A DNA stretch of 34,583 nt, from assembly GCA_013815785.1 (NCBI GenBank), contig JACDFO010000003.1, positions 1-34,583 on the forward strand. Reading direction: 5' to 3'. This DNA is from Candidatus Saccharimonadota bacterium (GTDB taxonomy: Bacteria > Patescibacteriota > Saccharimonadia > Saccharimonadales > JACDFO01). Below the pieces are notes generated by a model, which was not told the origin of the DNA, made no database searches, and saw only the letters and a list, made by a program, of their open reading frames with translations. The position numbers and the translations under genes were made by a program. Below, one piece after another: positions 33,777 through 33,938 of this stretch; positions within the stretch are counted from its first letter, which is position 1, and every line of letters begins with the position of its first letter.

Positions 33777-33902
33777 TTAGATAACCCAGCCGTTTGCGGT
33801 TTCGGTCTGGACTGGCTTATTCCAAAGAGTAAGCTTGGCAACCAGACGTCGGTGCAACGGTTGTGATTTTTTGCTTGGGTGTTTGTATTTGTCAGGAAAC
33901 AT
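33777..33902 (-). CDS. Small leaderless ORF, 41 aa
   Basis: MFPDKYKHPSKKSQPLHRRLVAKLTLWNKPVQTETANGWVI*; ATG exactly 7 nt after TAGAAT; terminator follows. Confidence 0.6.
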   Translation of the reverse strand: MFPDKYKHPSKKSQPLHRRLVAKLTLWNKPVQTETANGWVI

Positions 33903-33909
33903 AAACACA

Positions 33910-33938
33910 ATTCTAGCATACTGTTTGTGCTTTGTCAA
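33910..33938 (-). promoter_or_regulatory. Promoter TTGACA-17-TAGAAT for the 41-codon ORF
   Basis: Minus strand TTGACA (33933-33938), 17-nt spacer, TAGAAT (33910-33915). Confidence 0.75.

Follow-up and report, generated by a model that had tools for sequence, protein, structure and literature searches.

Does an open frame of only 41 codons, lying on the minus strand in the window (the whole stretch of DNA that was analyzed, 34,583 nt of a Candidatus Saccharimonadota contig), represent a gene of its own, and if so, is its product a peptide or an RNA? The original prediction had proposed a complete transcription unit around a leaderless microprotein gene. We located the following features at this site:

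33952 to 34461, minus strand: upstream neighbour, C-terminal part of a glycosyl hydrolase family 1 protein (PF00232, 4e-33)
33910 to 33938, minus strand: extended promoter, with the -35 box TTGACA (33938-33933), a 17-nt spacer, TG (33918-33917) and the -10 box TAGAAT (33915-33910)
33903 to 33909, minus strand: gap TGTGTTT of 7 nt between the -10 box and the ATG, within the genome's own leaderless spacing of 6-9 nt
33777 to 33902, minus strand: 41-codon ORF (translation MFPDKYKHPSKKSQPLHRRLVAKLTLWNKPVQTETANGWVI), with ATG at 33902-33900 and TAA at 33779-33777
33788 to 33860, minus strand: nested hairpin inside the ORF in the predicted fold (CCGTTGC/GCAAACGG, GTCTGG/CCAGAC, GCTTA/TAAGC)
33728 to 33756, minus strand: terminator-like hairpin of 12 pairs with the tail ATTTATTTCA (predicted -17.0 kcal/mol)
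33683 to 33711, minus strand: second copy of a 29-nt promoter stretch, 28/29 identical to 33914-33942
33229 to 33669, minus strand: downstream neighbour, an acidic orphan ORF of 146 aa (pI 4.4) that shares the promoter sequence

Read along the minus strand, the unit has the order TTGACA-N17-TGcTAGAAT-N7-ATG, 41 codons, TAA and hairpin, and this anatomy is directly visible: promoter, spacing, start codon, frame length and stop codon all lie where they had been placed, and the translation is exactly the one given before. The promoter matches the consensus at 11 of 12 positions and carries the TG extension in addition, and no Shine-Dalgarno site is present ahead of the ORF. The transcription start is predicted at the ATG or at most 1-2 bases away from it. 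The terminator-like hairpin begins 20 nt past the TAA; it had been described as an 11-bp hairpin followed by a T-rich run, but we find 12 pairs, only 5 of them G-C, and a T tail that is weak and interrupted. The three helices reported for the interior are present as well; when the fold is predicted, they combine into a single nested hairpin. That the frame had been missed by the ORF track is true only in the sense that it is shorter than the 60-aa cut-off.

The stop codon of the glycosyl hydrolase gene, which probably runs off the contig end, lies 13 nt ahead of the -35 box. On the other side, the second promoter copy is found 231 nt downstream of the first and reads into the 146-aa gene, with its -10 box at 33684-33679 and a 9-nt gap to the ATG at 33669; this repeat was absent from the original prediction. 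The 146-aa ORF belongs to no Pfam, PHROGs or NCBIfam family, shows only weak matches in 3 of the 297 other genomes of the order, and precedes mraZ (32999-32637), rsmH and then further cell-wall and division genes. Several GTGGG motifs are located ahead of mraZ (33060-33165, minus strand), which we take to resemble the MraZ operator of other bacteria. Two further candidates were discarded: at 33953 the promoter core recurs approximately for a third time, but with 4 mismatches, which many chance sites equal, and a TTATGTTT-like sequence past the -10 box could not be linked to a regulator, TATGTTTAC not being enriched between genes.

We scanned the whole genome (816 kb in 53 contigs, GC 0.444) for the same geometry, using a gene set of longest ORFs that was made for the analysis and is not a curated annotation (n=748). 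Between -15 and -12 relative to the start codon, a match to TATAAT of at least 5/6 was observed for 123 of the 748 genes, compared to 12-28 at six control offsets; roughly one gene in seven thus appears to be leaderless. In this set the TATAAT-like box ends 6-9 nt ahead of the start codon, the TG extension is visible (G at 59%), 87% of the starts are ATG, and the -35 region is mostly poor (at least 4/6 in 29 of 123). The 41-codon unit shows the same leaderless (TA-led) spacing, its TAGAAT ending 7 nt before the ATG where the genome peaks at 6-9 nt. Shine-Dalgarno motifs, too, have a maximum at the position typical for them, so that the two modes coexist in this genome. Leaderless geometry does not hold as a rule for its perfect TTGACA promoters, most of which have longer gaps. 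Across the phylum sample, TATAAT-N6-9-ATG was more frequent than TATAAT-N16-19-ATG in 116 of 147 genomes (P < 0.01 in 53), counted as whole-genome patterns independently of gene starts, and the excess was absent in the other 31, including several of one family (f49). Genome sizes are small across this phylum sample, and the placement of the organism in the Patescibacteria radiation is based on this and on a remark in the original prediction. Because the leaderless layout is common in this genome, a 41-codon gene of this kind is believable but fairly ordinary.

How often would such a unit arise by chance? The open frame alone is ordinary, since a frame of 41 codons remains uninterrupted in 19.5% of local dinucleotide shuffles. 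For the complete arrangement we searched all intergenic DNA for a -35 box of at least 4/6, a TG-extended -10 box of at least 4/6, a gap of 5-9 nt, and an ATG opening 20-80 codons. Four units were found compared to a mean of 0.33 in 60 shuffled sets, and with a terminator added there was one real unit, the 41-codon unit itself, against none in the 60 shuffled sets; these thresholds were chosen after the unit was known, and the figures are somewhat flattering. Two of the three other units encode ribosomal proteins, namely bL34 and bL33, and both of these score above their NCBIfam cut-offs. The third, at G000:C22:15496 in the same genome, is a 67-aa ORF (MPEVLASFVERRAPNMTDEF...) with leaderless spacing and a good codon score, for which we obtained no NCBIfam match. 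A leaderless transcription unit, with its start predicted at or within a base or two of 33902, is very likely.

When the order was searched at the DNA level, the matches in relatives fell on the promoter and not on the 41-codon ORF. The pattern TTGACAAARCAYAAACAGTATGCTA, with at most 3 mismatches, occurred at 54 sites beyond the two described here (a few of them inside genes), distributed over 47 other genomes of 278, while the reversed pattern, used as a control, gave no match. At 10 of 29 promoter loci inspected in relatives an ATG follows 6-10 nt past the -10 box, where 2.2-2.5 would be expected, although three of the ten come from one genus and are not independent. Other loci serve leadered genes, for example some that, judged only by the N-termini, appear to encode ribosomal proteins. 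The conserved spacer may therefore reflect either constraint by a regulator throughout the order or simply a favoured strong promoter.

Several of the order-wide loci (L129, L130, L132-L136; from about position 1500 in the orientation of the promoter) encode a recurring protein family of 66-99 aa whose ATG lies 6-10 nt past the -10 box. Its members have a K/T-rich N-terminus, one apparent membrane helix and an end like 'TTxYDYAISAxIFGR', and the single member tested gave no clear NCBIfam match. At two further sites of the genome analyzed here (G000:C5:20635 and G000:C5:24011) closely similar promoters, TTGACAAAAACATGTATTATGTGTATAAT and TTGACAAAAATACAGATTATGTGTATAAT, are each followed by a 111-aa ORF, which suggests a duplicated gene. 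One could go further and propose that the order possesses a dedicated promoter class, TTGACAAARCAYAAACAGTATGCTA, with the conserved spacer acting as an operator or as an element specific to a sigma factor. Promoters of this class would often control leaderless small proteins, such as the 41-residue peptide, its 146-aa neighbour and the one-helix membrane protein of 66-99 aa; the 41-residue peptide would then be one lineage-specific output of a shared regulon. We consider this proposal doubtful.

The presence of two nearly identical promoters also allows a reading in which the unit has no function at all. A local duplication of the promoter stretch could have placed an additional copy after the hydrolase gene, leaving the 41 codons as a lineage-specific relic or spacer of chance sequence without selected function. 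The direct repeats with 28/29 identical positions flank the unit and agree even where the order-wide consensus varies, recombination between them would remove the unit exactly, and none of the other genomes searched contains it. However, as the promoter spacer is conserved throughout the order at unrelated places, near-identity need not mean recent duplication, and a relic should not retain its leaderless start codon, its open frame and its terminator all at once, a combination that the shuffled sets did not produce. A relic is quite unlikely.

Next, we considered whether the 41 codons themselves look like coding sequence. Their codon score of 0.048 bits per codon is the best of the six frames, but corresponds to the 23rd percentile of 41-codon stretches from real genes, and 24% of open stretches between genes score at least as high, whereas the synonymous codon choice lies at the 88th percentile of real genes and in the top 5% of intergenic stretches. 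An overlapping ORF of 69 aa (33919-33710) was rejected as an alternative; its start lies within the -10 box, and where it overlaps the 41-codon ORF the scores of the other frames are lower. No relatives of the 41 aa were found in 150 genomes of the order (best E 0.025, chance level), in 389 genomes of the phylum (best per-genome E 0.002, with an internal stop), in phages or plasmids, or in GTDB-wide contigs and IMG/VR viral contigs, where the scans need two seeds of 7-8 residues each and see close relatives only. Since the genome is alone in its family in the samples drawn and the closest available genomes belong to the same order, this absence says little on nearer kin. Searches of Pfam, NCBIfam, PHROGs and PDB likewise gave no family or solved-structure match. 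The peptide is basic (pI 10.4), and a single-sequence structure model shows one helix at residues 16-26; with a mean pLDDT of 66, this model is too poor to serve in a fold search. From the charge and the predicted short helix one might guess that the peptide binds nucleic acid, the ribosome or a membrane surface.

These ambiguous coding statistics leave room for the main rival, a small RNA of ~185 nt, non-coding or dual-function, with a real promoter and terminator, which would fold into the interior and terminator hairpins and in which the ORF would be incidental or secondary. The full transcript folds better than its shuffles (z -2.9), but the ORF alone reaches only z -1.4, and much of the full-length value comes from the terminator hairpin. 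Similarly, the interior hairpin of 73 nt is stronger than in synonymous recodings of the peptide (P 0.028 or 0.005, window choice being allowed for), yet among chunks of equal GC a hairpin just as strong is found in 15% of the coding and 27% of the intergenic ones. Rfam yielded no match, even when E values up to 5 were admitted, and an ATG at exactly the leaderless spacing of the genome would have to be a coincidence. The hairpin statistics may thus accommodate a dual-function RNA without favouring it, and we regard a small RNA as a minor possibility that deserves to be kept in mind. The caveat of the original prediction that an sRNA or dual-function transcript might be present was reasonable, while its statement that the arrangement is hard to explain otherwise went too far in view of a non-coding RNA with a chance ORF. 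Of its central claim, the leaderless transcription unit is supported by the genome-wide and order-wide evidence; the translated product is no more than plausible, the codon statistics being ambiguous and the searches having yielded no homologue.

We therefore prefer to read the locus as a probable leaderless, monocistronic microprotein gene. The housekeeping sigma factor would read the extended promoter, and transcription would start at the ATG at 33902 or within a base or two of it. Ribosomes would then initiate at the AUG that forms the 5' terminus, with no Shine-Dalgarno sequence involved, a basic orphan peptide of 41 residues would be made, and transcription would end at the hairpin at 33756-33728. 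Exact transcription start, translation and termination are predicted here from the DNA; that the 41 codons are translated into a 41-residue product seems to us a reasonable expectation, held less firmly than the existence of the unit.

Genes of this kind are known elsewhere. In mycobacteria, leaderless small-protein genes (PMC4633059) and pervasive short ORFs (PMC9094748) were described from RNA-seq and ribosome profiling. As predicted for the 41-codon ORF, their start codon is at the 5' end of the transcript, and they too are missed by annotation based on length or Shine-Dalgarno sites; the mycobacterial cases rest on RNA-seq and ribosome profiling, whereas ours was read from sequence alone, in a different, uncultivated lineage and without a homologue. 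Leaderless genes as such are documented in many bacteria: TA-led genes carry TANNNT ~10-12 nt ahead of the start codon (PMC3160421), and in Deinococcus-Thermus a -10 motif is adjacent to ORFs (PMC12340547). The present unit resembles both, its -10 box lying 7 nt before the ATG with no Shine-Dalgarno site, but differs from most leaderless genes of its own genome, which have a poor -35 region, by a perfect -35 box and a spacer common to other promoters of the order. Within the genome it is most readily compared with rpmH (bL34) and rpmG (bL33), which are also short basic ORFs behind a TG-extended -10 box, with gaps of 8-9 nt to the ATG; these two encode conserved ribosomal proteins, while the 41-codon ORF matches no family. 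In the open-access papers searched, we found no description of leaderless genes or leaderless small-protein genes in Patescibacteria or Saccharibacteria.

Gene finders that rely on length or on a Shine-Dalgarno site miss short leaderless genes. With about one seventh of the genes leaderless-like in this genome, and the same bias in most sampled genomes of the phylum, further hidden small genes are suggested in these small-genome bacteria, and the position of the -10 box could serve as a check on many annotated start codons.
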